Positions 14,024 to 49,970 of a stretch of 64,000 bases of DNA are shown piece by piece. This DNA is from Acorus gramineus (Eukaryota > Streptophyta > Magnoliopsida > Acorales > Acoraceae), in contig CM060849.1 of the NCBI GenBank assembly GCA_030737835.1, positions 1,178,001 through 1,242,000 of the forward strand. The letters run 5' to 3'. The notes under the pieces are model-generated. The model worked only from the letters and a program-made list of their open reading frames with translations, did no database searches and was not told where the DNA came from. The position numbers and the translations under genes are program-made. How positions within the stretch are numbered: position 1 is the stretch's first letter; each line of letters opens with the position of its first letter.

Positions 14024-14856
14024 CTGGAGAAAAATATATGCGAGGGGTGAGCCACACGCTCAGTGAATAGCACAACCCATGCATCACAATTCATATTAAC
14101 CTCAAATCATTCATAGCCTCTAAGTGGCAACAACTACACAAACCAGTGGGTCGCTCATCGCCTACCCACTACACCCTCACCCTCACCTTCAAACTGGTGA
14201 CATGGTCTTTTGGGTGACTAGGCTGTTAATCACCCTTGGTCCACCGATAGCCTCTCCTCCACACCGTAGCTCGCCTGGTCTACTCCCACGATTCAACACA
14301 ATCCGAAACCAAATCAGGAGGTGCCTACTGATGGGAGCCCTCTGTCAGGACGGCCTGTCTAACGCTGAGAAGTCCCTACACGGATCCAACGAAGGGAAGA
14401 GAAACAGCCTACCCACACGGATACAATCCACCTAAATCTGCCGACACCGATCTCAACTCTACAAATGTCATGAATTCTTCAGAATTCCTCCAGGGTGCAT
14501 AACTAAGATGCGGGGAAGCATATATTATAACCACAAGGTTATAATATTCTCTAAGGCATGCTAATTACAAAACTCGCATTTGATTTAAATAAATTAAACT
14601 AAATGGGACGCATGCGAAGGTCGGGGCTTCCCTAGCATGAAAACATTGTATCACGATGCTTGGGCCTTTACACATATCATAAGGGTACATTTCCCTAACA
14701 TGCAAGGCCTAGGGTGGCATGGATACTAGATAATAATCATGCATGCATAGTTTACAATTAATACTATCTAATATGCAATTATGGTGCCCCAGGGGAGGGC
14801 AATGCACGCCTACGTGCATCGAACGCCTCCCTACTGGGTTGGATTGTCCCACTCAC

Positions 14857-14892
14857 CAATATCCGGTTCGTCGCGTGATCGTCCGTCGAGAT
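14857..14892 (-). other. Candidate 36-nt LTR exon, copy A3
   Basis: Acceptor CTTGCAG, donor GTGAGTGGG. The phase-1 frame reads LDGRSRDEPDI. Exactly 36 nt. Confidence 0.55.
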
Positions 14893-17395: not shown

Positions 17396-18685
17396 TGTTA
17401 TGCCTGTGTCATTTGGAGCCATTTCGGTTAAGCCTTGGTCACATCTAGGTCATTTAGGGCCTTCTTCTTTTTCGATCGGAGTCGCTAAAATTTTAGCTTT
17501 TAGCTACCTACGGGAGTTGGAGTACTCTGATTGGCAATCTAACTGCATATTATGGGTCCTGGTACCATTTGGTACTACCCATAAAAATTTCATCAAATTC
17601 CGATAACGTTTTGAAAAATATGCAGTTTCGAACCGTATCCGGGTTTTGAGAGTTCCTGGTTGGTCGAATAGTGTGAGATATTTTGAGGATGTGGTGACCT
17701 TTGGTAACCTTACCCCCACCTTGCTTAGTGATGAAGAAACCTTTGGTCTTTTGGTATGTGAGTGGGTGAGCCTAACCCTAACCTCACCCCCCCCCCCTCT
17801 CCCATTTCGTGGAACACCTTCTCTCCCTCTCTTGGTCTCTTTTTTTTCTCCTCTTTGTGTGTGAAGAAGGAGGAGGAAGAAGCAATTGAAGGAAAAGATG
17901 AAGAAGAAGCACAAGAAAGAGTGAGAGGGTGAGTATGTGTTGTTGTTGTTGTTGTTGTTGTTTCTCTTCTCCCTGTCCCCTTCTCATGCCCCTTTGCACC
18001 CCTGTTTTCTGCCATGAAGGGCTTGAGGAGATGCTGTGGAGGTGGTGGTAGTGGTGGTTGAGGTGGTCGTGGGTGTGTCGAGAACCCCGCATCTCCCCAT
18101 TTCCCTCCCCCTGTTTTGGTAAGGCAGCACTCTGTATTTTAAAGATCTCAGTAAATCTAGTATTTGGAGGCACATTCTTAGGATTATGTCTTCATATGAT
18201 ATGATCATCTATGTGTCTAGTTGTTATATATGAAATTTTGGGTCATTAGGATATTTGTGGTGTAAGTTGGAACCTGTTTTGCATGGCCTGTCCAGATTCA
18301 CGTTGGAATTGATCTGTTTCAGGAAGTGATTTATTTTGGGCTTGTAGAGGAAAAACTAGTTTCTAATGTCTTCATGGATTATGATCCCAGCATATCAGAG
18401 AATGTGCATGTTTTATTTCATAATTTTTGAAAGTGTATTGGGTGCTGTGGAGATCAATTAGTAGGGCTGGTTGCAGCAGGTTTGGCAGTTTTGCTTGGTT
18501 GAGTGTCAAGGAGTTGTTTGCATGTGTCTTGGGTGATAATATGGAAGTATCAGGGGTTAGGGTCTTCATGAAGTAGGCTTATATGTGTGATAGGAGGTTC
18601 CATATTTTAATTGTGGATCATTGGTTGTGTTTTGCAGATCTCGTAGACCGGACGCGCGGCGATCCAGGTATCGGTGAGTGGTTTG
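17396..18685 (+). repeat. B2 tandem unit 1 (canonical B type U3)
   Basis: 1290 bp from the LTR terminus to the next TGTTATGCC. U3 matches LTRs B1 and B6. Ends with the 36-nt exon 18638-18673 and a GTGAGT donor. Confidence 0.9.
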
Positions 18686-21584: not shown

Positions 21585-23039
21585 TGTTATGCCTATGTCA
21601 TTTGGAGCCTTATTTTTCGATTTGAGTCGCTAAAATTTTTGCTTTTAGCCACCTGCAGGAGTTGGAGCGCTCAGATTGAAAATTTGGCTACATAATTTTT
21701 CTCCTAGAAGTTATGTATTTCCAATTTAGTATTTGGATTTAATTTTGTTAAAATCCAAGATGAAGAGGTTTAAATATGATTTTATCATGAGATGCTCAGT
21801 TTTGAGTTAGCTTTCGTACAAAAGTGGAATTAGATCAACTGGATTCATGTAGTAAAAGTTACGGGTATTTTTCCAAGTATACCCCGGGATGTAAAATTCT
21901 GGCAGCAGCCCTGTTCAATGTTTAGCTCTCATTTTGGAATAGCTGGAGGGATTATTTGATCTTGGCATAAACATGAAAGTTGTAGATAATCGTCTTGGCT
22001 TTCCAAAGGATTTTGAATTGTGCAATTCGGAGCTATATCGTGGAAGTTATGGCTGTTCTAGTGAAGCCCGTCCAGAATTTCTGGTCAGGGACGATTTGGT
22101 CTTGTCCCCCCCACCAACTCACTTTATTTCCATTTAAGGCCCCTTTGTGTGGAAACCTCTCACTCTCTCTCACTCTCGTCTCCCTCTCCCTCTCTGTTTT
22201 TTTTTTGTTGTGTGTGTGTTGTTAATGGAGGAAAGGATGAAGAAGAAGCTCAAGAAAGAGTGAGAAAGGGTGAGAAAGCGTGAGTATGTGTTGTTGTTGT
22301 TGTTGTTGTTTCTCTTCTCTCAATCCCCTTCTCATGCCCTTGCACCCCTGTTTTCTGCCATGAAGGGCTTGAGGAGATGCTGATGAGGTGGTGGTAGTGG
22401 TGGTGGTGGTGGTTGAGGTGGTCGTGGGTGTGTCGAGAACCCCGCATCTCCCCATTTCCCTCCCCCTGTTTTGGTAAGACAGCACTCTATATTTTAAAGA
22501 TCTCAGTGAATCTAGTATTTAGAGACACATTCGTAGGATTATGTCAGGATACGATATGATCATCTATGTGTCTAGTTGTTATATATCAAATTTGGGGTCA
22601 TTATGATATTTGTGGTGTAAGTTAGAATCTGTTTTGCATAGCCTGTCCAAATTCGCGTAGGAATTGATATGTTTCAGGAAGTGATTTATTTCGGGCTTGT
22701 AGAGGCACAATTAGTTTCTAATGTCTTCATGGATTATGATCCCAGCATATCAGAGAATGTGCATGTTTTTTTCATAATTTTTGAAAGTGTATTGGGTGCT
22801 GTGGAGATCAATTAGCAAGGCTGGTTGCAGCAGGTTTGGCAGTTTTGTTTGGTTGAGTGTCAAGGAGTTGTTTGCATGTGTCTTGGGTGATAATATGGAA
22901 GTATCAGGGGTTAGGGTCTTCATGAAGTAGGCTTATATGTGTGATAGGAGGTTCCATATTTTAATTGTGGATCATTGGTTGTGTTTTGCAGATCTTGTAG
23001 ACTAGACGCGCGGCGATCCAGGTATCGGTGAGTGGTTTG
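21585..23039 (+). repeat. B2 tandem unit 4 (E type U3)
   Basis: 1455 bp. The 36-nt exon is at 22992-23027 with an intact GTGAGT donor. The TGG run contains TAG. Confidence 0.9.
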
Positions 23040-24489
23040 TGTTATGCCTGTGTCATTTGGAACCTTATTTTTCGATCGGAGTCGCTAAAATTTTAGCTTT
23101 TAGCCACCTGCAGAAGTTGGAGCGCTCTGATTGAAAATTTGGCTACATAATTTTTCTCCTAGAAGTTATGTATTTCCAATTTGGTATTTGGATTTAATTT
23201 TTTTAAAATCCAAGATGAAGAGGTTTAAATATGATTTTATCATGAGATGCTTAGTTTTGAGTTAGATTTCGTACAAAAGGGGAATTAGATCAACTGGATT
23301 CATGTAGTAAAAGTTAAGGGTATTTTTCCAAGTATACCCCGGGGATGAAATATTCTGGCAGCAGCACTGTTCAATGTTTAGCTCTCATTTTGGAATAGCT
23401 GGAGGGATTATTTGATCTTGGCATAAACATGGAAGTTGTAGATAATCTCCTTGGCTTTCCAAAGGATTTTGAATTGTGCAATTCGGAGCTATATCGTGGA
23501 AGTTATGGCTGTTCTAGTGAAGCCCGTCCAGAATTTCTGGTCAGGGACGATTTGGTCTTGTCCCCCCCACCAACTCACTTTATTTCCATTTAAGGCCCCT
23601 TTGTGTGGAAACCTCTCACTCTCTCTCACTCTCGCCTCCCTCTCCCTCTCTGTTTTTTTTTTTGTTGTGTGTGTGTTGTTAATGGAGGGAAAGGATGAAG
23701 AAGAAGCTCAAGAAAGAGTGAGAAAGGGTGAGAAAGGGTGAGTATGTGTTGTTGTTGTTGTTGTTGTTGTTTCTCTTCTCTCAATCCCCTTCTCATGCCC
23801 TTTGCACCCCTGTTTTCTGCCATGAAGGGCTTGAGGAGATGCTGATGAGGTGGTGGTGGTGGTGGTGGTGGTGGTTGAGGTGGTCGTGGGTGTGTCGAGA
23901 ACCCCGCATCTCCCCATTTCCCTCCCCCTGTTTTGGTAAGGCAGCACTCTGCATTTTAAAGATCTCAGTGAATCTAGTATTCAAGGCACATTTGTAGGAT
24001 TATGTCTGCATATGATATGATCATATATGTGTCTAGTTGTTATATATGAAATTTGGGGTCATTATCATATCAGTGGTGTAAGTTACAACCAGTTTTGCAT
24101 GGCCTGTTCAGATTAGCGTAGGAATTGACCTGCTTCTGGAAATAATTTGTTTCGGGCTTGTACAGGCACAATTAGGTTCTAATGTCTTCATGGATTATGA
24201 TCCCAGCATATCAGAGAATGTGCATGATTTATTTCATAATTTTTGAAAATGTATTGGGTGCTGTGGAGACCAATTAGTAGGTCAGGTTGCAGCAGGTTTG
24301 GCAGTTTTGCTTGGTTGAGTGTCAAGGAGTTGTTTGCATGTGTCTTGGGTGGTAATATGGAAGTATCAGGGGTTAGGGCCTTCATGAAGTAGGCTTATAT
24401 GTGTGATAGGAGGTTCCATATTTTAATTGTGGATCATTGGTTGTGTTTTGCAGATCTCGTAGACCGGACGTGCGACAATCCGGGTATCT
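23040..24489 (+). repeat. B2 tandem unit 5 (E type U3), leads into LTR body
   Basis: The last unit. Exon-1 frame from ATG 23839 to donor 23936, 97 nt, phase 1, with an unbroken TGG run. The 36-nt exon 24454-24489 is followed by GTGAGTGG and the B hairpin. Confidence 0.9.
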
Positions 24490-24507
24490 GTGAGTGGTTT
24501 GATCCAA

Positions 24508-24560
24508 TCCCCCCTCGAGATGCGCTCGACGCGCGTAGTCGTGCGTCGCGCATCAATGGG
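24508..24560 (+). promoter_or_regulatory. Long hairpin after exon 2 donor, copy B2
   Basis: Arms GATGCGC/GCGCATC (7 bp) and GACGCGCG/CGTGCGTC (8 bp, one G-U in RNA), separated by a 2-base bulge, loop TAGT, core 24519-24554. A/E copies have unrelated arm sequences at the same place. Confidence 0.65.
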
Positions 24561-26573
24561 GCATCCTAGCTATACTACTTGTGTAGATAAGTAGTATGGC
24601 CATGCTTAGACTATAATATGTTAGATATCTTGCATGCTAGGCTTATATTGCATGTATTGTATCCATGTATGAATGATTGTATCGCATGCGCCCCTCTAGT
24701 ATGGGCATGTATTTCTGTAATGTGCATGGATGTATAGAATATGGCATGCCTTAGGTAGTATTGTAATACTACTCCCACCATATTAATTGGAATATCCAGC
24801 ATGATTAAGTCTGGGTTAATAACGGGCACCTTCCTAATATTCCCTTGCGATAAAACTCGAGGGCGTGGTGTAGTAGTTGCGCCCATACTAATGGGGCAAG
24901 GCTATGACCAGCTTCATGAGATGATGATCTCTCTCGCCCTCTCCCTCTGTACGAACTGAGTAAGTAGATGTGATTTCCTACTCGACTCAGATTCGTTTGG
25001 AATATTGGCATGCACCTGTTAGTGCGCGAGATCGCGCTTGACCCTTTCTTTTAAGTTGGTGATATCCAACGCATGCTTAAGTTATGCCTTGTGTGCTTAT
25101 ATGATTAATGGCCACGTATGCATGTTTAAGTGGGCCATACCATGTATGCATGTTGTATGATTTGTTGTTTATGATGTAAATCCATGTTAGGGGTCACCCT
25201 TATGGTCAATTATTAGATGATTGTGCATATGGTTCATGCACATAGCTAGATATAATTCTCCTGGATATATTTATATGCGATGTTAAAAACTGATAGGCCT
25301 ATCTGAAATAGGCGTGGGTATGACCCGCTGTCGGGTTGTACCTTATTAGTTAGAGCGCTAGCGATGTAATCACCCCGTGCATCCGAGCGATGCACTCGTT
25401 TGGAATTCAGGAGAATTCATTATCTTATCGGTTTTGTTAAACCGGTAGTTGGGGCATTAAGCTAGACCTACCCGTGCTAGGCGTGTACATGAACCGTGTA
25501 CATGAACCGCCTGTTTGGTTATGTGCCCAGGGGATTATTTCTACGTGAGAGCAGAAGCAACCCCCCTTATATTCGAGCGACGCAACTGCGTGGGAGTACA
25601 ATAGTGTTCGCTATCATCGATATGTGATTATCGAGAGTAGTTTTTTTTCCATTGGGTTCGCTTTGCGAACATGGAGTGTTTCCTCCCAATGTCGTCCGTG
25701 TTGAAGCGGCCCGGGTTGTAGCTGTCCTGACAGAGAGCCCCCACCTGTAGGTACTATCGATGCATGCGGCAAGATGCACTGATCGTGGGGGTATACGAGA
25801 TAGAGGCTACCCGGAAGAGGGCTAACGAATGATATTGCGAGCGTGGAATCGTTCTCCCCTTCATTGGATCCGATGTAGGAACTTTCCGGCGTTGGAAAAG
25901 CTGTCCTGACAGAGGGCTCCCATCCGTAGGTACCACCGAGGCATTCGGAAGCGTACTGATCGTGGGAGTATACCAGGTAGTGACTATCTGGGGAAAGGGC
26001 TACCGGTCGCCCAAGGGTGTAGAGGAGTCTAATCTCTCCAAAAGTCCTATGTCACCTATAAAGGGTGAAGGTGAGGATGAGGTGAAGACACGTCGTTGCG
26101 TGACCCATTCGTGGTTCGTCCGTTCTCATAGTTGTTGGGACCAGTTGCGTATCGATGCTCAAAGACATCGTTGGGCAGTTATCTCGATGTAGATGATCCA
26201 GTAGTGTTGTGTAGACCAGTAATTTTGGGTCTCGTCGACCAACGGTATGGTCTCTCCCCAAGAGACCCAAGAGTCTCCCTTCGGGAGTGAGGGTGAGGGT
26301 GAGGTTGGTGATTTAGTAGTGTTGTGTGGACCAGTAATTCCGCGTTTCTTTGACCAACGGTGTGGTCTCTCCCCAAGAGTCACAAGAGTCTTCCTCCGGG
26401 AGTGAGGGTGAGGGTGAGGTTGGTCGCACCGCCGCGTGACCCTGTTATCCATGGGTTTCCACCCATGTTTTCCTTGAAAGGAAATTGCTTTAGTATTGAA
26501 CTGTTGTATGGTGATTGGTTTCCAGCCACTCACTGAGTTTGTAGCTCACCCCTCGCATACTGTTTCTTTTTAG

Positions 26574-26758
26574 GGGCAGTGTTGGGCGTGGAGCTGGAGC
26601 TTTCCTGTGGCGTGGTCTTATGGGCGTGGAGCGTTCTTTCGGCGGGTGGCGAGTGCGAGGCTGTCAGCAGTCCTAGAGTCATTTTATGTATTGTAAATCG
26701 TGTATGTGGCACATGTTGTATTTTATTTGGTCTAGACTTGGCTCTCACAGGACAGTGA
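26574..26758 (+). other. Candidate last LTR exon, copy B2
   Basis: Pyrimidine tract and acceptor (TTCTTTTTAG). In phase 1 the frame is open for 61 codons, ending at TGA 26756-26758; phase 0 is also open for about 40 codons. The family A stop is not conserved here, so the coding assignment is weaker than for A. Confidence 0.3.
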
Positions 26759-26961
26759 TTGTGTATTCGAGTCTGTAATAATGTTTTTGGTTTACAAACA
26801 TTGTTTATATATTATGCTTCCACTTTTCAGTCAGTTATCATTATCTTTGCTTTGCCACCTTGTGTGATGTTGTTGGAGTCTTTATTGACCTCAGGTATTG
26901 ATAGCTGATATTTCATTATTGCCACGTCTCAGGGACGGCCGCCCTGGGGCGTGACAAAAGT

Positions 26962-26973: not shown

Positions 26974-28724
26974 CTGGTCCTTTCAGAGCCTAAGTCTAGT
27001 CGTATAGATGATGAGTCGTAGGATTGTCATCCGAGTACTCTTGTTTTAGAAGTTATCTTAGGTTGCTGACATGCCTCCTCGCATCCGTTGACGTGGACGT
27101 GACCCCCCTGGACCTACCCTTAAGTTGTCGACTGGTTCGACTGAGTAGGGTCAGTTGTTGGATCCCTTGTTGCGGGATTAAGGCTTGGGTAGGAGATTCT
27201 AGCCCAGTAGTATGATAGTGATGAATTGGTTGCAATTTTCATGTTATGGATTGCGTCTCGATAATGGAGCTTCTTTCCCGTGCATCAGTATTGCTGGTAA
27301 CCATGGAGTTCACGTGCAACTCTAGTTTCAAGTTTTGAGGATGTTGCATATTGCTCATTAAGGGGTGATGTCTTCTTCCAGCCTTCCTACTCAGGATTAA
27401 GGGCCTTGCGGGGTCATCGTTGAGACCCGGGCTAGGGTACTCCGTGTTCCTTGTTTGGTTGTCGGGATATCCTATATCAGGACCTCATGGTGCCCTCCCA
27501 AGGTTCTTTTCCCAGTCAAGGAATACCTATGAAGCATCTAATTGATGATTGATTTTTCCTCTCACTTGGAAGGTGCTGTAGCGAGTGGTGATGCGTACGA
27601 TCGGGATTGGGTACATCCTATTGCAGCTTGGTGGGCAATTGCTTGTGGACTGGGTTCCGTAGTGGCATCTAGAGTCGCTTCGATATATCAGTGTGCGTTG
27701 TAGCTGCCCGGTTGAGGCCAGAGCCCTGTGAGGTGCTCCCAGATACTATGCTTGTTGGTGCGCCCATATGACAGAGATAGTGGGCTTGGGAGGCTACCAG
27801 GTAGAGGCCACACCGGGAGAGTGCTACTGGATGATGTCGAGAGCGTGGACTCCCTGTGATGAATCTGCCCATGGAGTGCAGGATGCTGGAGTTCCAATGG
27901 TTATAGTTGAGCTCTCTGGTGGCATGTGAAGCACAGTTGTGGATATTGTCGCGTTTTGCCCCACATTGGTCGCAAATAAGGAGACGCGATGCTAACGTTC
28001 GTGATGGGACTCAACCGCCTTATCAGATAGATGACGTCGCATAGGCATTGTCGAGGTTCGACGACCCCCTTATTGCGTGTCTTGTGGATTAAGTGCGATT
28101 GAGCGGCTTACCAAGCGTGTAAGTGTCATCATGAGCGCCAGTCATGCTCGAGGAGCAGAATCTGGACTTAATTGTTCGAGGTGTTGTTTTGATCTCCCCG
28201 TGGAGGTTGTAGATCAATTACCTTTGCTGTGAATTGATGATCTGTTTGACCAGCTCTGGGAGCGGGTGTCTGCTGTTAGATCGATCTTCGCACAAGGGTA
28301 CCACAAGTTGGAGATCCGGGAGTTGGACATCTTGTAGATGGCCTTTCGTGACCGTTTTAGGCACTACGAGTTTTAAGTACTGCTGTCGGGGTTGACGAAT
28401 GCGCCAGATGCCTTCGTGGATCTCAAAAGTTTTATTGGGCTTCCGTGGACTACTTTGGGTAGTCTTCATTGAGATTGCTAATGGTGCGATGAAAAGGCGA
28501 TTTGGGTGACCTTGTTTCCCCAGGTTGGCATGCCCTCAGGCAAAGTTCGAGAATCATCATCGCGTTGGAAAGCGTCAGTCCATGGAGATTCCTCAGTGGA
28601 CGTGGGAGTGGGTTATCAGGGATTGTTGCGGACTCGCTAATGTCACATTCGGGTCACGACGCCGTCTAGGTGATCATTGACCGACTGACTAAGTCCGCGC
28701 TTCCCTCCCTAATCCGACTGATTG
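26974..28724 (+). pseudogene. Decayed internal region of B2 (Tekay-like)
   Basis: Follows the PBS. Near 27070 a broken gag start resembles family A gag (MPPR...). Around 28225-28440 the translated pattern IDDLFDQLW, then GLTNAPDAFVDL with internal stops, is a relic of Tekay RT; about 28620-28724 is an integrase relic with VIIDRLTKSA-like spacing, cut by the A4 LTR. Between them, 27415-27515 and about 27690-27880 resemble pieces of A and B LTRs (phrases around TACTCCGTGTTCC and TACCAGGTAGAGGC), so the region is a mosaic. No gene product is possible. It shows that B is a relative of A. Confidence 0.65.
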
Positions 28725-29995: not shown

Positions 29996-31382
29996 CTGCA
30001 AGACATGGGAAACCAAAATGGTGAGTAAAATACACAAATACACAAGAAATACGCTAGAAATACCCAACACTCGGACAAGCATGCATACGGGCCCGTACGC
30101 ACGCGAGTCCGAGTGCCCCGACACACTCCCGCACCCACGGCAGCCATGCGCACGGCCACCCGCACGCACGCGCACGGGTGCGCACGCACTCACGTAGCCC
30201 CGCGCCCCGGGTGCACTACCGCGCCCCAGCCCGCTCGCCCAGACACGCCGCACACTCGTGCGCGTCCAGCCCTGCGCCTAACCGCGCGTACTGTGCCCCT
30301 GCGCAGCACCCCGCGCGCACCCCTGCGCGCACCGCACGCACTGCGCCCTAGGCGCAGCGCTCAATGCGCACGCCCGTGAGCCCGCGCGTACGCGCGCACT
30401 CGCCCAGCGCCCCCGACTGCGCGTGCCTGCTCTGCCTGCGCGCGCAGACTCGCGCGCACGCAGCACTCCACGCGGATGACCCCGCACGCGCGCCTGAGCC
30501 AAACCTACACTCTTCCTCAGCCCTCCCACACCCCCACACATATGCATACCATGCATACACCCTATGCACACCCTAACATGCATCTAAAACAAGGAAAAAG
30601 GGGGGAGGAAAGCTTAACCAAGGGAGGAAAGAAAAGAGGGAACTTCGGGTGCTCTTCGCGCACCAAAACACCACCACCAAAGCCACCACCACCAAGACCT
30701 CTTCTCAGCCTAAGAGGGGCTGAAAACAGAGGAGAAAAGGGAGCTAAGAGAGGAGGAAAACAAAGGGGAATGGAAATCCTAGACCATGGAAAGATAGATC
30801 GGGTCCTCACCTTCCTTTTCTCCTTCTAGGGTTTTCCAATCCAACACCTTCTACTAGATCAAAAGTGGGAAATAAAGAGAGGGGAAGAGAGGTTTTGAGA
30901 GAGATGGAGAAGAAGATGAATAGGGGGGGTTCCTATTGGTGGACGTGGACTTAAAGGGGCCACACACACTCACCACACACTCACACTTAGAAAAAAAAAT
31001 AGGTTAAGCTAGGTTTAGGTGAACTTTGACTTGGGTCAACCTAACCACACTAGAAAACAAAAGATTTTGACCAAGTCAAGGGTCAAACTTGACTTGGTCA
31101 AAGTCATCTTTGACTTGGTCAAGTCTCCCAATGACTTTTCGCTTGGTCAAAACCCAGATACGATTCGAAACTGTGAAATTCTGAACGTTACCGGAATTCA
31201 ATGAAATTTTTGTGAGTGGCTTGAAATGGCACCAGGACACATAATGTGCAGTTAGATTTTCACTCATGATGATAGCCAAAAGTCCAAAATTTTAGCGGTT
31301 CCGATCGAAAAAAGAAAAAGTTGAAAAACTGCCAGAATGCTCCAATGGTGACCAGAAGGTAAAAAGTGACACATATATAACA

Positions 31383-31434: not shown

Positions 31435-32470
31435 GAAGGGAAAAGATGCGGATACGCGTCACGCATGGCGTCCTCGAGCTCCCAAGTGGCCTCGGCACCA
31501 GAACGGTGCTGCCATCGCACCTTGACCAGCTGGACGGTCTTGGTGCGGAGCCTCTTCTTGCGGAGGTCCAGGATCTCGATCGGCTGCTCCATGAATGACA
31601 AGTTCGGCTCGAAGACGAGCGGCTCGAACGGGATGACGTGAGAAGGACGTGGACGTAACGCCTCAGCTGCGAGACATGGAAGATGTCATGGGTCTGAGCC
31701 AACTGTGGGGGCAAAGCGATGCGTAAGGCCACCTCCCCAACTCACTCGAGGACGAGGAACGGCCCAATGAAATGCGGACTCAGCTTGCCCCGCACACCGA
31801 AACGGAAGATGCCCTTCATCAGGGACACCTTCAGGAAGACATGGTCACCAACCTCGAAAACGAGCTCACGGCGACGACGATCGGCGTAGCTCTTCTGACG
31901 GCTCTGAGCGACTCGGATATGCTCACGAATCGTCTTGACCATCTCTGAGGTCTGGTGGATGATCTCTGGTCCCTCCAACTGGCGCTCTCCGACCTCGTCC
32001 CAACACAAGGGGGACCTGCAGTTGCGGCCATAGAGCGCCTCGTATGGAGCCATCCTGATACTCGAGTGGTAGTTGTTGTTGTAGGCAAACTCCACCAATG
32101 GAAGATGCCTCTCCCAACTGCCCCCAAAATCGAGAACGCAAGCTCGCAGCATGTCCTCTAGGGTCTGAATCGTCCTCTCCAACTGGCCGTCCGTCTGCGG
32201 ATGAAACGCTGTACTGAAGTGGAGGTTTGTACCAAGGGCGTGTTGGAGGCTACGCCAGAACCTCGAAGTAAATCGCGCGTCTCGATCAGAAATGATGCTG
32301 ACGGGAGTGCCATGGAGACGAACAATCTCGGAGACAAACAACTGCGCCAGGGTGTCCAGAGAATCGGTGAGTCGGATGGGGAGGAAATGAGCGGACTTCG
32401 TCAGTCGGTCGACGATTACCCAAATGGCATCGCGACCCGAACGTGACCTCGGCAAACCCGAAACGAAGTC
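31435..32470 (-). pseudogene. A4 integrase core and chromodomain (Tekay type)
   Basis: Catalytic core of integrase: MDFVSGLPRSRSGRD with the first Asp, IISDRDARFTSRFW with the second, and FHPQTDGQLERTIQ with the Glu. Then MAPYEALYGRNCRSPLCW and the C-terminal GKLSPHFIGPF. A TGA (31742-31744) interrupts after FLVLE where CGA is usual, consistent with CpG deamination. Beyond it come LPPQLAQTHDIFHVSQLRRY, a frameshift near 31650, and a chromodomain with LVKVRWQH and TWELEDAMR. A chromodomain at this place marks chromoviruses, where it directs insertion to marked chromatin; RGKLSPHFIGPF indicates Tekay/Del. Inactive because of the stop and shift. Confidence 0.9.
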
Positions 32471-33106
32471 CATGGTGATCTGCTCCCACTTCCACTAAGG
32501 AATCTCAATGGACTGCAGCTTCCCTGCAGGGCGCTGGTGCTCCGACTTCACCTGCTGGCATACCAAGCAACGGGCAACGAAACGGGCGATATCCGTCTTC
32601 ATCCCGCACCACCAGTAGCCACGACGAAGGCCCCTGTACATCTTCATGCCACCAGGATGCACTGTGTACCTCGAATGATGGGCCTCGTCCAAGATCTTCT
32701 GCTTCAGCTCTGCGTTGTCAGGAATGCATACTCGACCTCTGAACCGCAGGATCCCATCCTCGCGAATCTGGTAGTCCGGACGCTCGCCCCGGGCGACGCC
32801 TTCAGAGAGGACTAGAAAGTGAGGATCCTGCCCCTGAGCCGTGCGGATCTCGTCGAGAAGAACGGGCTGCACCACTAGCCTGGCCAAAAAGCCACCCGCA
32901 GGAGTCTCTCGAACGCTGATCCAGCAAGCGGCCTCCTCCAGAAGCCTCCAATGACGTACAACCATGTGGGCGGCCATGCCCAAGGGCTGCCTGCTGAGAG
33001 CATCAGCCACGACATTCGCCTTACCCGGATGGTAAGCGATGTCACAATCATAGTCCTTCAGGAACTCAACCCAACGTCTCTGACGCATGTTGAGCTCCGG
33101 CTGGGA
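32471..33106 (-). pseudogene. A4 RNase H tail and integrase zinc domain
   Basis: The open frame 33088-32495 begins MRQRRWVEFLKDYDCDI (RNase H), with HPGKANVVADALSRQ closing that domain. Integrase N-terminus follows: HHSRYTVHPGGMKMY and CLVCQQVKSEHQ, giving an intact HHCC zinc site. The frame ends at TAG (32495-32497) before WKWEQITMDFV, where Glu is normal, so this is a nonsense change in the middle of integrase. Confidence 0.9.
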
Positions 33107-34395
33107 CTACAAATATGTCAAGCTCTTATGATCGGTAAAGAGCTCGAACTCCTCGCCATAGAGGTAGTGCCTCCACATCTTCAGCGCAAAGATGATCGCT
33201 GCCAACTCTAAGTCGTGGGTGGGGTAATTCTGCTCATGGGGCTTCAACTGACGCGACGCGTAAGCCACAACCTTACCGTGCTGCATCAGGACGCAACCCA
33301 CACCCAACCGCGATGCATCGGAGTAAACTGCGAACCCACCACTCCCAGACGGAAGGGTAAGAACTGGCGCTGAGGTGAGCCTTCGCTTCAACTCCAGGAA
33401 GCTCTCCTCGCAAGCCGGGGACCACTTGAACCGGACATCCTTCCGAGTGAGGCGGGTAAGAGGTACAGCCATCTTCGAGAAACCCTCGACAAACCTCCTG
33501 TAATAACCTGCCAAGCCCAGGAAGCTCCGAATCTCGGTGGGGTTCGACGGTCGACGCCAATTCGACACGGCGAGCGTCTTGTCCAGGTCCACAGATATGC
33601 CCTCGCCGAAAATCACGTGGCCCAGAAAGGCCATACGCTCCAACCAAAACTCGCACTTACTGAACTTGGCGAACAACTGATGTCGGGCCAAAGTTTCCAA
33701 GATAGTGCGGAGATGGTGAGCGTGCTCCTCAAGACTCCTCGAGTACACCAGAATATCATCGATGAAGACTACTACAAAGGAGTCGAGGAAGGACCGAAAC
33801 AACCGGTTCATCAGATCCATGAAGGCCGCCGGCGCATTCGTCAACCCAAATGGCAGTACTCTGAACTCGTAGTGCCCATAACGGGTACGAAAGGCCATCT
33901 TCGGAATGCCTGACTCCCGTATCCTCAGCTGATAGTAGCCCAAACGAAGATCGATCTTAGAAAAGACACGCGCTCCCTGGAGCTGGTCAAACAGATCGTC
34001 AATCTGTGGAAAGGGGTACTTGTTCTTCACGGTCCGCTTGTTCAGCTTCCTGTAATCAATACAAAGCCACAGCGAACCGTCCTTCTTCCGGACGAACAGA
34101 ACAGGGGCTCCCCACGGAGAAACACTCGGACGTGCAAAGCCCTTCTCCAGCAACTCCTCCAACTGCTCCTTGAGCACCTTCAACTCTGCTGGGGCGATCC
34201 GGTACGGAGCTCTCAAAATCGACTCGGTCCCCGGAATCAGATTTATCTCAAACTCGATCGCGTGATCCGACGGTAATCCTGGAAGATCATCGGGGAAAAC
34301 CTCGGGATACTCTGCCACGATTGGAGTCTGACTGATATCTGCCCGCAGCGGTGTGTCCTCCTCGGCAATATACGCCAGAAAGCCCTCACATCCTA
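33107..34395 (-). pseudogene. A4 reverse transcriptase and RNase H
   Basis: Reverse transcriptase of the Tekay-type element. Motifs: [19 protein letters not shown] linker, [37 protein letters not shown] with the first Asp, [18 protein letters not shown], and [14 protein letters not shown] with the catalytic D-D pair (FIDD variant). RNase H begins at [19 protein letters not shown] and [10 protein letters not shown], then TAG at 33107-33109. The frame stays open upstream to 34395, where the A5 LTR starts. One of the best-preserved coding stretches in the window, and the one from which the lineage call is most secure. Confidence 0.92.
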
Positions 34396-35955
34396 TGTTA
34401 TATATGTGTCACTTTTAGCCTGCTGGTAACCGTTGGAGCGTTCTGGCAGTTTTTCAATTTCTTTTTGGTTTTCGATCGGAACCGCTAATTTTTGGACAGT
34501 TAGCTATCGTCCTAAGTTAGAGGACTCCGATTGGAAATCTAACTGCATATTTGGTGTCCTGGTACCATTTTAGGCCTCTCACGAAAATTTCATCAAATTC
34601 CGGTAACGTTTCTGAAATTTCGCAGTTCCGGGGCGTATCCGGGTTTTTAAGTCACTTGCTATATAAATGAAATCTAATTTTTGGTTGACCACTATTCATC
34701 ATCCCTACCAAATGCATTTTCTCTCTCCCCTCTCTCTTTTTCTTTGATTTGAGCCCCCTAGACCCCTCAAACCTAAAAACCTAAAACCTAGGAAGTGTAG
34801 ACGGGTCCCGATCTACACCCCGGTGGTTTCAAATCCCCATTCTGGCAAGATTTGCCCCTCCATCCCCCCTCTCTTCTCCTCTGTTTTGACCCATTTTGAG
34901 GGCCAAGATAGATCCGGGCGGTGGAGGCCTTTTGGGAGAGGTTTCGGTGCGCGGAGAGCGTCCGGACTTCCCTTCCTCCCCTTGGTAAGCCTCTTTTCTC
35001 TCTTTCTTATGCTTAGATGTATGTTAGGAGGTGTGATTAGGGGTTGGGAGGAGGTCGGAGGTGGTGGGTGGCCGTCGGAGGGCTGTGGAGGTGGTCGGAG
35101 GCTGGGGGTGGCGGGTGGTGGAGGTTGGATGGCTCGGTCTAGGTGTTGGGCTGTCCGGGCAGGCTGGGCGCGCAGGCGTGCTGGGTAGGTGGTGCTCGGG
35201 CGCCAGGCAGACAGTGCTCGGGTGGGTAGGCGAACAGGGCTCGGGCCACTCGGCGACGCGCGCAGGCAGGCAGCGCGGGCAGCAGCGCGCGCAGGCTGGC
35301 AGGCGCGCTGGGCGTGTGTTGCGCGGGCGTGCGCGTGGGCGCTGGGTGAGGGTCCCGAGTGCTGGGCGCTGAGCACCAGGCACTGGGCCGCGGGTACCGG
35401 GTGCTGGGGGTGATGTCCGAGGGCAGTGCGTGCAGGGGGGGTCGTGCAGGGTGCGCGCGGGGTGCGGCGAGGCGGCTGTGGTGCGCGCGGGGCGCGGCGG
35501 GGCGACTGTGGTGCGCGCTGGGCGCGGCGAGGCGGCGGTGGTGCGCGCGGGGTGTGCGCGGGGCGAGACGCTGCGCGCGGGGCGTGCTGGGTGCTCGCGG
35601 GCCAGCGCGAGGCGTGCGGGGTGTGCGCGGGCGGCTGCGCTGGGGCGCAGGGGGCGCGCGGTGCACCCGGGAGGTTCGGCGGCGCGTCCAGGCGGCGGGC
35701 GGGGGCCCAGCGGTGCGCGGGGTGCGTTGGCTGAGGCGCGGCGGTGCACCCGGGCGGTCGGGTGGCCGTGCGTGGGGGGGTTGCCGGCCGTGCGGGTGGT
35801 TGCCGGGGTGCTCGGGCTAGCGTGCGTGCGGGTCGTATGCACGTTTGCCCGAGTGTTGGGTGTTTGATTTGGGATTTTGGGTATTTATTTGTGTATGTTG
35901 TGTATTTTGGGGTAGTTGTGGATTTTAACTCACCATATAAATGTCTGTCTTGCAG

Positions 35956-35991
35956 ATCCTGACGGGCGATCGCGCGACGACCCGAACTTCG
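35956..35991 (+). other. Candidate 36-nt LTR exon, copy A5
   Basis: Acceptor TGTCTTGCAG, donor GTGAGTGGG. The phase-1 frame reads PDGRSRDDPNF. Upstream exon 1 ends at a GTAAG donor (34985) leaving one base, which gives the same phase. Confidence 0.6.
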
Positions 35992-36014
35992 GTGAGTGGG
36001 ACAATCCAACCCAG

Positions 36015-36056
36015 TAGAGAGGGGTCATACGTATTTGGGCGTATACCGACCTCTCC
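36015..36056 (+). promoter_or_regulatory. Hairpin after exon 2 donor, copy A5
   Basis: Outer stem GAGAGG/CCTCTC and inner GGT(C)ATACG/CGTATACC with one bulged base. Copies A1, A3, A4 and A8 have GGGAGG/CCTCCC and ATGCACG/CGTGCAT instead, so both arms changed together. Confidence 0.65.
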
Positions 36057-36298
36057 TGGGGCACCATGGATGTATATTAACCAGCAGTAATATGTAATCC
36101 ATGCTTGCATGACTTAAATGTAGAATGCATGCTACCCTAGTCTTTGTATGTTAGGGACTTGCACCCATAGGATAGGTGTAAGAGCCATGCACCATGCCCC
36201 CTGTTTTCATGTTAGGAAACCTTGGCCTATGCATGCGTCCTACTAGTTTATTTATTAAATTAAATGCTAGTGTATGTTAAATCGCATGCCTTAGATAA

Positions 36299-36610
36299 TA
36301 TTATAGGGAGGAGCTTTGCGAGGTCAACATTGAGACCCGTGTTAGGGTACTCCGTGTTCCTTGTTTGGTTGCCGGGATGTCCTGTATCGGGACCTCATGC
36401 TGCCCTCCCAAGGTTTCTAGTCCCATTAATATTATAAGTACTGTTATATAACTGGTATGATTATTAGCATATTTAGTGAATATTACAGGGGAGGGGCCTT
36501 GCGAGGACAGCAGTGAGACCCGGGTTAGGGTACTCCGTGTTCCTTGTTTGGTTGTCGGGTATCCTATATCGGGAACTCACGCCGCCCTCCCGAGTTCTTT
36601 CCCCCAATGA
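36299..36610 (+). repeat. Two-copy ~180-bp tandem repeat in LTR A5
   Basis: Both copies contain TACTCCGTGTTCCTTGTTT and an inverted CCCTCCC/GGGAGGG-like border. LTRs A2 and A6 have one copy. Confidence 0.75.
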
Positions 36611-36970
36611 TATTACAACCTTGCTTTTAATGTACGTGTTCCCGCATCTTGGTTATGCGCCCTGGAGGAACTCTGAAGAGTTCATGACATTAGAGTTGTA
36701 GAGATGTACTGTCGGCGGATCCGAGTTGATCATATGCGTATGGATGGGCTGTTCTGTTTCCCTTCGTTGGATCCGTGTAGAGACTGCCCCAGCGTGATAA
36801 GGTCGTCCCTTTCGAGGGCTCCCATCAGTAGGCGCCTCCCGATATTTGTGACGGACTGTGCTGAAGTTATGGGTGAAGGCCAGCGGCCTACGGAGTGGAG
36901 GAGAGACTATCGGTGGACCAAGGGTGACCAACAGCCTAGTCAGTCCCAAAATCCTATGTCACCCGTGGTA

Positions 36971-36994
36971 GGGTGAGGGTGAGGGTGTAGTGGG
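36971..36994 (+). promoter_or_regulatory. G-quadruplex-type motif in LTR A5
   Basis: Four GGG runs with loops TGA, TGA and TGTAGT on the LTR sense strand. A second one follows near 37067-37089. Confidence 0.6.
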
Positions 36995-37236
36995 TTGGCG
37001 ATGAGCGACCCGCTGGATTTGTCTATGGGTGATTATCAGTCCCAATAGCCTATGTCACCCATTGATGGGTGAGGGTGAGGGTGTGGTGGTTCGGCGAAGT
37101 ACGAACCACTGGATTATGTTGTTATGCCACTTAGAGGTTGGATAAATAATGGAATTGTGGTAAATATTGTATGTGATGCATGGGTTGTGCTGTTCACTGA
37201 GCGTGTGGCTCACCCCTCGCATATGTTTTTCCCCAG

Positions 37237-37301
37237 TGGTCACTGAGCCTGAGCTGGAGCCGGAGCAGCAGTTGGAGCTTTTCGAGGGATTCCTTCAGTA
37301 G
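37237..37301 (+). other. Candidate last LTR exon, acidic tail, copy A5
   Basis: Acceptor TTTTTCCCCAG. The phase-1 frame is longer than in other copies (65 nt) but a multiple of three more, with core TEPELEPEQQLELFEGF and TAG. Confidence 0.5.
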
Positions 37302-37640
37302 CGGAGCAGCGCCACGTTCCGCGAGTACCAGAGGTTATCAGCATCCCTTCTTGACTGTATGTATTTTATTTCTGTGCTTGGCACGCGTCTGTGTATATTC
37401 AGTTGTATTTGTGTATATTGGCTCTCACAGGACAGATGATTGAGTATCGAGTCTGTAGTATGTTTATTTACAGATTTAGTCTTTTGCTTCCGCATTTGGT
37501 GTATATATCATGTCAGCCTCTTTGTTGTCTGTGTGTCATTCTGGTTGTTTGTGTATGATATATTATTGACCTCCTGTGTAGATTCTGATATTTTATATAC
37601 ACTTGCCGCGTCCCGAGGACGGCCGCCCTGGGGCGTGACA

Positions 37641-38513
37641 TCCTCCCTGAAGGAGTCTCCACGCCTGGATGGACGACACGAACCCCAAAGGGGCTACGTC
37701 ACGATCGCCCACGAACTGGAAGGACCTCCGACCCGGAAGGTGGAAAGACACCGACTTGGCAAAACAGTCGATGCTAGCGTGACTAGCTGAAAGCCAATCC
37801 ATTCCCAGGATGGCATCGAAGTCTGTCATGGCGAGCTCTACCAACTCCACTGGAAACTCATGCTCCGCAATCACCACGGTACACCCTCGGTAAACAGAAC
37901 GGAGGAGAATACGGTCTCTGACGGGCAATGATATCTCCAGGATAACATCAAGAGGGGCGGACGCCACGCCCATCCGTCTCGCAAAAGCGGGAGACACGAA
38001 CGAGTGCGTGGCTCCGGAATCAAATAACACATATGCAAGGAGCTGGGAGATCTGAACAATACCTCGGACCACGCTACCCGAAGCCTGCACCTCCTCGGCC
38101 GAAAGTGCTGCAACTCTGCCCTGAACAAACTGCGGCTGAGGAGCAGGGGCACGCCTCGCAGGCTGCACTGGCTGCCTCCTCTGGTCAACACGGCCACCCT
38201 GTGGCTGCTGCTGCTGACGCTGAGGCTGCTGCTGTAGCTGCTGCTGCTGCGGAGGCAGCACGCGGGGTCGGCCAGCATCAGGGCAATTATATAAAATATG
38301 CCCGATGCGCTGACAATGGTAACAGCGCCGCGTCTCCGGTCGCCTGGACTGGACTGGTACTGCTGCAATGGGTGCTGGACCTCGCACTGGCACCACATCA
38401 ACTGGAATAGCGGCAACCGCTGACCGATCAAAGAGGGGCCGCTTCTTCTTGCGCTGTCCCTGGTCCTGGCTCCTAGGAGATCTCTGGTCTGCAGAAGGGG
38501 TTGGAACCCCCAT
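37641..38513 (-). pseudogene. A4 gag C-terminus and aspartic protease
   Basis: Zinc knuckle CYHCQRIGHILYNC (CCHC, nucleocapsid) near residue 64, then a glutamine-rich linker coded by CTG/CAG-like repeats, then the retropepsin-like protease with AYVLFDSGATHSFVS (D-S-G), ILEISLPV and DAILGMDWLSASHASID. The frame stays open to the A5 LTR and is continuous with the RT frame on the other side if the LTR and one target-site copy are discounted, so A4 was intact here when A5 inserted. Protease would cut the gag-pol precursor in virus-like particles. Confidence 0.9.
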
Positions 38514-39418
38514 GGAGGCCCGAGGTCTCGCTCGACTGTCTTCGCCCGAGACACCAAGTCCGAGTACCTCGTAAACGCCTGTGAAGAGACGTGCACCCGA
38601 ATGGTGCTGATGAGACCCATCTCAAAGCGACGACACCGCGTCTCCTCATCCATCACCAAGGCTGGGGCGAACCTGGAAAGCCTCGTGAAGCGTGTGGAGT
38701 AGTCCGCGACTGACATGGAGCCCTGCGTCAGCTGCTCAAACTCCCGCATCACGATCTGGCACGTCGAAAATGGGAAGTACTCCTCCAGGAAATACCTCCG
38801 GAACCCCGCCCATAAAAGTCGCTCCACTCCCTCGGGAATGTCCACCGATCGGGTAGCCCACCAGTCAGCGGCGCTACCCTTCAGCATGAAGGTGGCCAGG
38901 GAGACACGCTGGCGATCGGTGCAGTGCATGGTCGAGAAGATCTTGTCCACCTCCATCAACCATCGCTCAGGGGCAAGGGGGTCCGCCGTCTGTCCATGGA
39001 ACTCGGGAGGGTGGAGCTTCACTCTGATGCACTCGCGCTGCAGCCTCTAGCTCCACCTCCCTCGCCAGGGGATCCTAAACTCCCACCGCTGGAATCACCA
39101 CGGGAGCCGGGGGTACATCGGGCACCACAGGTGGATCTGCCACCAAGGGGACCTGTGGAACTGCCTCATGGGCCGCCCTCAGCTCCTGAATCTCTCTAGC
39201 CTGCTCAGCTAACGCCCTCGTCTGGGCCTCTAATGCTCTGGTCGAGTCTCCACCAAATCTGCTATCCGAGCGTAAGCACGCTCCCATGCAGGAGGCTCCT
39301 GCGCCAGTCCTGGCCCCATAGCCGAGGACTCTCCAGTAGCATCCTCACCTCTGGTAGGTCCGGGAACCTCCAAAGGCCGAGAGGGACCACGTCCACGCAT
39401 TCCTCTGCGAGGAGGCAT
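38514..39418 (-). pseudogene. A4 gag N-terminal and capsid region
   Basis: Starts at ATG 39418 (MPPRRGMRGRGPSRPLE), a basic start shared with copies A6 and A8. Then a coiled stretch (TRALAEQAREIQELRAAH) in a second frame, and the capsid domain LHPPEFHGQTADPLAPERW, KGSAADWWATRS, FEQLTQGSMSVADYSTRF and RFEMGLISTIRVHV. Two or more frameshifts (near 39230-39290, 39030 and 38510) divide these. Downstream of PBS and upstream of the zinc knuckle, as expected for gag. Confidence 0.88.
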
Positions 39419-39521
39419 ATCAGCAACCTAAGAAAACCAGACACTAGGATCAAAATACTCATATACAAATTCTAGGACTCATCTCTACGAAAAAGGAGAC
39501 AATTGGCTCTGACAGGACCAG

Positions 39522-46617: not shown

Positions 46618-49384
46618 TGTTATATATGTGTCACTTTTAACCTTCTGGTAACCATTGGACCATTCTGGCAGTTTTTCAGGTTTTTCGTTTTTCGGTCGGA
46701 ACTGCTAAAATTTCAGGCTTTTAGCTATCACCCTGAGATGGAGGGTTTCGATTGAAAATGGTACTGCATATTATGTGTCCTGGTGCCATTCCAAGCCGCT
46801 CACGAAAATTTCGTCGAATTCCGGTAACGTTTCAGAATTTCACAGTTCCGGGGCGTATCCGGATTTTGACCGAGCGAGAAGTCATTGGGAGAGTTGACTT
46901 GGTCAAGTGGGCCCATAGACTTGGTCAACCCCTTTTGTTTTTATTTGTGGTTGAGTTGACCTAAGTCAAAACCCACTTAAAACCCCCTAATCCTCACTTA
47001 AACCTAATTAATCCTCTCTTAACCCTAATCTAAGTGAGGGATTATATATAAGTGAATCTAAAATTAGCCCCCCACTATTCATCTTCTTCTCCACTTGATT
47101 TCTCTCTCCCCCTCTCTCTTTTCTTGGGTTTGACCCACCTAGGGTGCTTGAAATAAAAAACACAAAGAATTGAAAGGTTAGATCTCATCCCGATCTATCT
47201 ATGGGTGGTCTCGGATTCGAGTTCCGACGAGTTTGACCCCCTCTAGCACCCTCTTTTCTCCTCTGATTTCAGCCCCTTTGAGGGTGGAAAGAGTTCTTGG
47301 TGGTGGAGGGCTTTGGGGAGGTGTTTCGGTGCACGAAGAGCTCCCGGTCTTTCCTTCCTTCCTTTCCTTCCTAGGGTAAGCTCTCTTTCCTTCCTTTTCT
47401 TGCTTAGATGCTTGTTAGGAGGGTAGTTTTGAGGGCTGGTGGCTGTTGGTGGCTGTTGGTGGTGATTGGAGGCCATTGGTGGCCGGTGGGTGGTGGTGGA
47501 GTGGCTCGGGCAGGGTGGGCTGTTCCGGGTAGGCAGGCAGGCAGGGCAGGCATGCTAGCAGGGCAGCGTGGGCGTGCGCGCGGGTGGAGCTCGGTTCAGG
47601 CGCATGCGGGCAGTGGCGCGCGCAGGCAAGCAGGCGTTGGCAGGCGAGCTGCGGGCAGGCGCGTTGGGCGCGTGCTGACGGGCTCGCTGGGCGCGTGCGG
47701 TCGGGCGCGCTGGGCGCAGTGCGCGGCGTGCGCGCGGAGCGCTGCACAGGGGCGCGTGGGCGAGCAGTCGGTGCGAGCGGGGAGTGTGAGCGGGCAGGTG
47801 TGCGGGCGCTGCGCTAGGGGACAATCGGTGAGTGGGACAATCCAACCCAGTAGGGAGGCGTACTACTCACTTGGGAGTGTATTGCCCTCCCCTGGGGCAC
47901 CATGGATTTATATTAACCTGTTGTAATGTGTAATCCATGTAAGCATGATTAAAATGTAGTATGCATGCTACCCTAGACTTTGTATGTTAGGGACTTGCAC
48001 CCTTAGGATATGTGTAAGAGCCGTGCATCCTGTCACCTTGCTATCATGTTAGGAAAGCCTCGGCCTATGCATGTGTCCTACTAGTTTAATTTGTTAAATT
48101 AAATGCTAGCATATGTTTAATTGCATGCCTTAGATAATATTATAGGGAGGGGCCTTGCGAGGTCAACATTGAGACCCGGGTTAGGGTACTCCGTGTTCCT
48201 TGTTTGGTTGTCGGGATGTCCTATATCGGGACCTCACGCTGCCCTCCCAAGGTTTCTTTCCCAATAATATTATACCCTTGTTACTATTATTATTATGCAT
48301 GTTCCCCGCATCTTGGTTATGCGCCCTGGAGGAATTCTGAAGAATTCATGACATTAGAGTTGTTATGATGTGTTGTCTGCGGATCCGAGTGGATCATATG
48401 CGATGGATAGGCTGTTCTGTTCCCTTCGTTGGATCCGTGTAGAGACTACCCCGGCGTTGGAAAGGCTGTCCCGTGCAGGGGCTCCCATCAGTAGGCACCT
48501 CCTGATTTGGGACGGACTGTGCTGAATGTGGGGGTGGCCAAACGGCCTACGGAGTGGGGAGAGACTATCGGTGGACCAAGGGTGACCATCAGCCTAGTCA
48601 GTCCCAATATCCTATGTCACCATATTGAGGGGTGAGGGTGAGGGATGTGGTGGGTCGGCGATGTAGTGACCCACTGGATTGTAAGTCCCAATATCCTATG
48701 TCACCTATTGAGGGGTGAGGGTGAGGGTGTAGTGGGTTGGCGATAGCGACCCGCTGGATTTGTGTAGTTAGTCCCAATATCCTTTGTCACCTATTGAGGG
48801 GTGAGGGTGAGGGTGTAGTGGGTTGGCGATAGCGACCCATTGGACTGTATAGCTGTTGCCATTTTGTGGCTTTTAATAATGAGATTGTGGATTATTAAGA
48901 ATATCTGGTTGTGGTTAATATAACTGTGTTGCATGGGTTGTGCTGTTCACTGAGCGTGTGGCTCACCCCTCGCATAATATTTTTCTCCAGTGTCATCTGA
49001 GTCGGATCTGGAGGAAGAGCTCCGCGAGGGACTTCATCAGTAGCGGAGTAGCGCCACGTCCCGCGAGTATCAGAGGCTATCAGCATCCCTTGTGATTGTA
49101 TGTATTTATTCCGTGCTTGGGCACGCGTCTGTGTATTATTGGATGTCTTTATATATATTGGCTCTCACAGGACAGTTGATTATGTATCGAGTCTGTAATA
49201 TGTTTTTGGATTACAGATTCAGTCTTTTAGCTTCCGCTATTGGTGTATATATCATGTCAGCCCTGCTTTTGTTGTCCTTGTTGTCATTTTAGCTGTTGTG
49301 TGAGTATGTTATTGAACTCCTGTTATACTGATATCATATATACACTTGCAGCGTCCCGGGGTCGGCCGGCCCTGGGGCGTGACA
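46618..49384 (+). mobile_element. Element A6, 5' LTR
   Basis: 2767 bp, TGTTATATATG to GGGGCGTGACA, followed by PBS and gag. TATA-like ATTATATATAAG near 47043. An internal deletion near 47820 removes exon 2 up to its last bases, but the GTGAGT donor (47827) and hairpin (47853-47891, third arm variant) remain. Three G-rich minisatellite units (48630-48860). Last exon 48991-49043. Confidence 0.92.
48991..49043 (+). other. Candidate last LTR exon, acidic tail, copy A6
   Basis: Acceptor TTTTTCTCCAG, phase-1 core SESDLEEELREGLHQ, TAG. Lies 463 bases upstream of the A6 gag ATG. Confidence 0.5.
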
Positions 49385-49401: not shown

Positions 49402-49505
49402 CAATGGTCCTGTCAGAGCCAATGGTCTTCTTTTCGTAGAGATGAGTCCTAGGATTTCTATATGAGTATTCTGATCCTAGTGTCTGGTTTTCTTAGGTTG
49501 CTGAT

Positions 49506-49970
49506 ATGCCTCCTCGCAGAGGACGGCGCGGACATGGTCCCTCTCGACCTTTGGAGGTTTCCGGACCTACTAGAGGCGAGGATGCTACTGGAGAGTCCAC
49601 GGCTGTGAGGCCAGGATCGGCGCAGGAGCCTCCCGCATGGGAACGTGCGTTCGCTCGGATAGCGGATTTAGTGGAGACTCAGACCAAGGCATTGGAGGCC
49701 CAGACCAGAGTGTTGGTAGAGCAAGCGCGGGAGATCCAGGAGCTGAGGGCGGCCCGTGATGCAGTTCCACAGGTCCCCTTGGTGGCAGATCCGCCTGTGG
49801 TACCCGAAGTACCCCCAATCCCCGTGGTGGTTCCGGCGGTGAGAGTTCAGGATCCCCTGGTGAGGGAGGTGGAGCTGGAGGCTGCAGCTCGAGTGTAGCA
49901 GAGTGGCCTCGCAGCCTTTCTGAAGCTCCACCCTCCCGAGTTCTATGACCAGTTGCCGGATCTGAAATAG
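49506..49970 (+). pseudogene. A6 gag N-terminal fragment
   Basis: ATG at 49506 (MPPRRGRRGHGPSRPLE), basic start, then WERAFARIADLVETQ, a coiled stretch QTRVLVEQAREIQELRAARD, and a Pro/Val-rich linker. A stop comes at 49896-49898, after which LAAFLKLHPPEFYDQL still recalls the capsid start. The remainder is lost at a junction with the end of B4 near 49970. Undamaged frame for 130 codons. Confidence 0.88.

Follow-up and report, generated by a model that had tools for sequence, protein, structure and literature searches.

Exact losses of an intron in genomic DNA point to a spliced leader within the long terminal repeats of Ty3/gypsy retrotransposons of Acorus gramineus

Plant long terminal repeat (LTR) retrotransposons are generally without introns, and a 2025 review gives Ogre and EVADE among the exceptions (PMC12786077). 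BARE1 of barley has separate RNA pools for translation and packaging, one of which is spliced; the pools come from two TATA boxes, and the 104-nt intron has its junction just past the end of gag (PMC3735527). Ogre elements, which are Ty3/gypsy elements of plants, have an intron that is partly spliced (PMC6317226), and in Diaspora of soybean the LTR is predicted to hold five donor sites and the start of gag to be flanked by two potential acceptors (PMC1142308). We describe here a 64,000-nt stretch of Acorus gramineus DNA (assembly GCA_030737835.1, contig CM060849.1, positions 1,178,001 to 1,242,000), hereafter the window, in which LTRs of nested Ty3/gypsy elements carry a recurrent series of splice sites that delimits three exons and two introns, with a further donor-like motif at the end of exon 3 (Table 1, for the LTR copy A5). 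Intron 1 of this series was removed exactly in RNA that was later reverse transcribed, and traces of these events are present in the DNA of the genome.

The Acorus elements are similar to BARE1 in that both are plant LTR retrotransposons and in that the two RNA pools of BARE1 are the arrangement we propose here, but they differ in having their introns in the LTR and leader, ahead of gag. With Ogre they share the status of plant Ty3/gypsy elements with an intron, and unlike in Diaspora, one LTR intron is backed by exact losses. To our knowledge, Ogre is not a chromovirus. Among retroviruses, human T-cell leukemia virus type 1, bovine leukemia virus, and the foamy viruses have a splice donor in the R region and thus inside the LTR, but they produce gag from unspliced RNA and have their downstream exons beyond the LTR, whereas the Acorus LTRs contain several exons and gag itself would come from spliced RNA. 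A literature search for introns in LTRs or before gag found no report of such splicing, within a scope that excluded most subscription papers and all preprints.

All of the evidence is genomic DNA sequence, including pattern searches over the 398.6 Mb host genome. If a spliced RNA is reverse transcribed, copies from which the intron is missing exactly should exist, and a pattern for the exact joining of exon 1 to exon 2 matches the genome 38 times, compared with no matches to a control; the junction patterns had no matches in a smaller set of 330 kb of sequence. Twenty-four of the 38 were read, and 22 are true joins in which the usual last 70 nt of exon 1 are followed by exon 2 and then by the start of intron 2, with the remaining 14 known as pattern matches only. 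The other two loci read (L092 and L097) are related unspliced copies in which the acceptor TTCTAG replaces TTGCAG ahead of exon 2, and were rejected as joins. There are thus up to 36 joins relative to 8,286 intact units, and they represent exact intron loss upstream of gag in an LTR retrotransposon. The 22 joins form 17 clusters at a threshold of at least 90% identity and have A-, B-, and E-like leaders, and judging from these clusters and leader types rather than from a tree, loss of intron 1 probably arose repeatedly. Donor 2 is altered to ATGAGT in one joined copy (L090), and both acceptor 3 and a hairpin that follows donor 2 are retained in all four of the joined copies that were read further. 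One intron-1-less pair looks like a complete insertion, to the extent that it was read at its ends and not through its internal part: neither LTR has intron 1, the two share 96.9% identity over 2108 nt, a primer binding site (PBS) follows the first, a polypurine tract precedes the second, and a 5-bp target duplication, ACCAT, is present on both sides. This intron-1-less element (L081, L082, and L105; G000:C2:7692637 to about 7700072) seemingly lies within the hairpin flank of another LTR of the superfamily.

The sites that the first-pass annotation had proposed in A5, namely a TATA-like box, the donor of a GC-rich intron 1, a 36-nt exon with its own donor, and the acceptor of a last exon, were all confirmed by direct reading, and its claim that their order recurs in other LTRs is also well founded, although its labels for those copies (A2, B1, and so on) were not assigned coordinates. 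The same order is present in the oriented copies 7974-4841, 16365-13627, 31382-28725 (with GTTAAG as donor 1, at 30618), and 57437-54869, and exon 2 is deleted in two others (46618-49384 and 41437-39539). Those A, B, and E copies of the window that retain this region all have the acceptor, a 36-nt exon, and the GTGAGTGG donor. The pattern TTGCAGATC-N12..42-GTGAGTGG, comprising acceptor, exon 2, and donor, has 14,247 matches in the genome, compared with none for the reversed pattern, and among 100 matches listed, exon 2 is 36 nt in 80, 39 nt in ten, 37 nt in six, 35 nt in three, and 29 nt in one. A further family, C, likewise has an acceptor and a donor around an exon 2 of 36 nt, despite a non-homologous intron 1; only 25 bases of the AT-rich C intron 1 (37% GC) can be aligned with the GC-rich A intron 1, whereas the place and length of exon 2 are kept. 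Intron lengths vary widely (479–1372 nt for intron 1 in 63 of 87 units, and 833–1856 nt for intron 2 in 65 of 87), and a near-invariant block precedes the exon 3 acceptor in 12 window copies, including C. It is this recurrence, and not the strength of the sites, that makes the case for a splice unit. With a rough site scorer, built on plant splice-site frequencies and too weak to rank sites by itself, donor 1 of A5 ranks second of 276 GTs and acceptor 3 second of 179 AGs, with acceptor 2 sixth and donor 2 outside the top eight. In two B-type leaders (15670-15761 and 30719-30810), exon 1 contains a donor and an acceptor that both score highly and are separated by about 90 nt; this possible extra small intron is not found in A5. 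A stretch of A5 intron 2 with inverted-repeat ends (GGGAGG...CCCTCCC) is duplicated (36291-36437 and 36473-36618), and is absent from B-type copies.

The distribution of AUG triplets suggests what the exons are for. Relative to composition shuffles, AUGs are depleted in exon 1 (0.35 versus 3.2 expected in the 46 usable units of 87, with none in 33) and in exon 3 (0.14 versus 1.57 expected in 57 of 64 units, with none in 52 of the 57), whereas they are enriched over the first 800 nt of intron 2 (26 versus 14 expected) and show no depletion in the last 450 nt of intron 1 (5.9 versus 4.9 expected); the units are related, so the counts are not independent observations, and many of the 87 were chosen via the exon 2 pattern itself, which favors intact copies. 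The density of AUGs shifts at the splice sites. In profiles of 63 and 43 units, exon 1 has 0.41–0.44 AUGs per 100 nt and none over its final 50 nt, with 3.3 just past donor 1; the density then falls from 5.95 to 0.42 in the last 50 nt of intron 2 and to 0.05 where exon 3 begins, and returns to 2.4–5.0 around and beyond the exon 3 donor. Exons 1 and 3 look like an AUG-poor leader, and an untranslated leader that is spliced is a better reading of the split unit than a small gene.

The first-pass annotation had also raised the possibility that the exons encode a small protein, and we regard this as improbable. Such a protein would be acidic and would end ...LHQ* or ...FLQ* in exon 3, and its strongest point is a low ratio of non-synonymous to synonymous polymorphism (pN/pS) in exon 2, which the leader reading cannot fully explain. 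In pairwise comparisons of 41 distinct rows, out of 51 picked as in frame, pN/pS in the proposed phase is 0.20 for codons 2–10 and 0.38 for the whole exon, relative to 1.04 and 1.24 in shifted frames of the whole exon, and only one of 60 column shuffles is equally low. Several length differences in exon 3 are also multiples of three, with some of these rows having been chosen in frame. The ratio for exon 3 is 0.55, however, which is equaled in 16 of 60 shuffles, and exon 3 lengths measured up to the GTATGT donor disregard multiples of three. The first-pass annotation had seen no in-frame AUG in exon 1 of family A; an in-phase AUG in exon 1 is indeed rare, being present in two of 66 copies, both C-like, and AUGs are avoided there. 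The consistency of phase that the first-pass annotation reported holds for 47 of 55 measurable exon 1 ends (11 of 66 having been set aside) but fails for the other eight, and in some copies (L033, L034, and L078) exon 1 closes with an in-phase stop. A 37-nt family and a family with an 11-nt deletion break the frame, six of the ten listed 39-nt exons have a stop at their end, and the putative protein has no match in Pfam. The end of the last exon must likewise be reconsidered; the acceptor and the internal TAG at which it had been placed are both present, but an end at the TAG is not required and the conserved GTATGT lies further downstream. An extension of the pol C-terminus into the 3' LTR was excluded in the copy that was read, where pol has its own stop ahead of the polypurine tract.

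Beyond intron 1, the leader likely continues to gag. Exon 3 terminates at the GTATGT of GTATGTAT in 57 of 64 units, with lengths among those listed of 97, 106, 107, 109, 110, 114, 120, and 121 nt, and an acceptor-like CTTAG|G is situated 9 nt upstream of the gag AUG in nine of ten gag leaders, including the C family. These conserved sites suggest that the leader may be joined to gag by splicing, and the annotated alternative of a long leader spliced out before gag is supported for intron 1, with its exact losses and AUG-poor flanking leader, and is plausible for the junction with gag. Four matches were found to retrocopy joins of LTR exons to gag and none was accepted, since one (L103), which was read, is a rearrangement, and the other three, dismissed on the listed letters alone, have an altered acceptor.

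Several observations weigh against a leader spliced throughout. Exon 2 is hardly depleted of AUGs (24 in 87 units versus 33 expected), and when related units are collapsed to clusters there are 1.05 AUGs per 250 nt of exon 1 versus 3.44 over the 200 nt that open intron 1 (n=23), and 0.5 per 95 nt of exon 3 versus 2.9 in the preceding intron (n=4 only). The site scorer places chance sites within the LTR above some of the proposed ones, and in one gag leader prefers an acceptor-like site at 39484 to the proposed site at 39427; an intron of 71% GC is atypical for plants. In the C family, GTATGT is missing from three of four copies, and exon 3 contains an AUG. Finally, there are no genome matches to an exon 2-exon 3 join, using a pattern that would catch 44 of 65 units on both sides and whose exon 2 half, with its donor, matches 6,379 intact units, so either intron 2 is not removed, or RNA without it is not copied. 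Nor are there genome matches to an exon 3-gag join, which fits an RNA without a PBS, for which retrocopies are expected to be absent, and equally fits no such splicing. A model in which intron 1 is the sole working intron, serving as an expression-boosting leader intron, with donor 2, acceptor 3, and the exon 3 donor unused or otherwise employed, accounts for these last observations in that every exact loss concerns intron 1, with none of intron 2 and no join of exon 3 to gag. We nonetheless consider it unlikely, because donor 2, acceptor 3, and GTATGT are conserved, and because exon 3, lying between acceptor 3 and GTATGT, is AUG-poor in contrast to the AUG-rich intron 2.

The hairpin that begins 18 nt downstream of the intron 2 start has a stem of 20 pairs. 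Pairing is observed in 87.2% of cells among 23 sequences, compared with 36.6–57.8% for slid versions, with column shuffles averaging 85.0%. Two-sided changes occur at six pairs, a number reached by six of 500 shuffles and by one slid version with 43% of its cells paired, and the covariation score exceeds those of all 500 shuffles. RNAalifold finds only a weak consensus with the identical alignment, probably as a result of misregister between families. The G-U pairs on the given strand suggest that RNA of this same sense is folded. No match to the hairpin was found in Rfam up to an E value of 0.5, and a packaging role, given its place in an intron never seen to be lost, is a guess. Since conservation extends to the hairpin and its flanks and no Rfam family matches, it could be argued that the whole region is a conserved element, acting as RNA or DNA, whose resemblance to splice sites is fortuitous, but we give this hardly any credence, as many copies have lost exactly the sequence from donor 1 to acceptor 2, which is not expected of such an element.

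We therefore favor, as the probable though not certain interpretation, a spliceosomal 5' leader that is borne by the LTR and is tripartite up to gag, in which the last intron removes the PBS and the unspliced RNA serves as genome. Transcription would start past the TATA box, and the leader would be assembled from exon 1 (about 295 nt), exon 2 (36 nt), and exon 3 (about 97–121 nt). Intron 3 would extend from the GTATGT near the LTR end, over U5 and the PBS, to the acceptor 9 nt before the gag AUG, such that the fully spliced RNA would be a compact message for gag-pol, incapable of being reverse transcribed, with the unspliced RNA as the replication template. That introns 2 and 3 are also used, that the exons serve as a leader, and that the two RNAs divide the labor in this way is inferred. 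A more specific proposal, which we advance tentatively and with somewhat less than even confidence, is that splicing of the tripartite leader acts as a switch between translation and replication, with introns 2 and 3 holding signals needed solely for replication (the hairpin as packaging signal, and the PBS). Every fully spliced RNA would then be a message, and copying would be restricted to RNA that keeps intron 2, which would explain why intron 1 is occasionally lost (up to 36 joins versus 8,286 units) and intron 2 in no match found (zero versus 6,379).

The elements that carry these LTRs appear to belong to a plant Ty3/gypsy chromovirus-like superfamily, with the Tekay/Del clade as a candidate by domain content. 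In Pfam searches, broken copies in the window show domains of Gag, protease, reverse transcriptase (RT), RNase H, and integrase, in the Ty3/gypsy order. A frame near 31500-31430, ahead of a stop and a polypurine tract, is chromodomain-like as judged by eye. LTRs in the window start with TGTTATATATGTGTCA, or TGTTATGCC in the C family, and end with GGCGTGACA or near variants, and a PBS-like TTGGTATCAGAGC is located 3' of the 5' LTRs. A5 is a solo LTR, judging from its flanks, and a perfect TTGGG target duplication surrounds the solo LTR at 13627-16365. The C-family LTR at 17396-26956 includes a tandem array of its own 5' part, which runs from the LTR start into intron 2 and stops 12 nt after that intron begins. 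Unit starts are seen at 17396, 18686, and 23040, with a period of about 1.45 kb, and the units end in GTGAGTGGTTTG and rejoin an LTR start. Tandem units of 82–96 nt with GGGTGAGGGTGAGGGTG are present at 36940-37115, 5305-5644, and 48595-48849, and their number differs among LTR copies. Conservation among the LTR families, including C, is among the highest at 37418-37490, where the block GGCTCTCACAGGACAG precedes a stem-like GAGTCTGTA...TACAGATT; this stretch may be a processing or polyadenylation element.

Table 1. Coordinates of LTR, leader, and protein-domain features within the window.
Feature	Position	Strand	Basis or remark
LTR A5, solo LTR, TGTTATATATG...GGCGTGACA	34396..37640	+	flanks TCCTA/TCCTC, 4/5 bases identical
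TATA-like box TATATAAATG	34660..34669	+	direct reading; aligned leaders
Leader exon 1, AUG-poor	34690..34984	+	start expected near 34690; equivalent joined exactly to exon 2 in 22/24 junction loci
Intron 1, 971 nt, 71% GC, donor G|GTAAGC at 34985	34985..35955	+	exact loss in copies elsewhere in genome
Exon 2, 36 nt, preceded by acceptor TTGCAG	35956..35991	+	direct reading; recurrence
Intron 2, donor G|GTGAGTGG at 35992 to CCCCAG, AUG-rich	35992..37236	+	no copy lacking intron 2 matched
Covarying hairpin	36010..36060	+	
Conserved branch/acceptor block CACTGAGCGTGTGGCTCACCCC...CAG ahead of exon 3	37195..37236	+	
Exon 3, 120 nt in A5, no AUG; TAG 37299-37301 internal	37237..37356	+	
Conserved donor-like GTATGTAT ending exon 3	37357..37364	+	putative intron 3 donor; 57/64 units
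C-family exon 2, 36 nt, with acceptor and GTGAGTGG donor	18638..18673	+	intron 1 there 37% GC
First bases after acceptor-like TTTTCTTAG, to gag AUG (49506)	49497..49508	+	5' LTR ends 49384; PBS between LTR and acceptor
Acceptor-like junction and gag AUG	39416..39427	-	follows 5' LTR ending at 39539
Acceptor-like junction and gag AUG	27062..27073	+	downstream of C-family LTR ending at 26956
rve (under its cut-off) and SH3_Tf2-1	31742-32473	-	broken copy; Pfam
H2C2	32495-33088	-	broken copy; Pfam
RVT_1 and RNase H	33107-34318	-	broken copy; Pfam
Retrotrans_gag	37871-39022	-	broken copy; Pfam
RVP_2	53538-54371	-	different copy; Pfam

How an LTR retrotransposon apportions a single transcript to the two tasks of translation and reverse transcription has no settled answer, and this abundant superfamily, with more than 14,000 unit copies in a 399-Mb genome, may solve it through leader exons in the LTR and a PBS placed in an intron. 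Such an arrangement may also help to account for the LTR length of about 3 kb. The LTR copies, solo LTRs included, bring with them a promoter-like region together with splice donors and acceptors that could be captured by host genes. Old intronless copies constitute a DNA record of splicing, which can be counted in any assembled plant genome.
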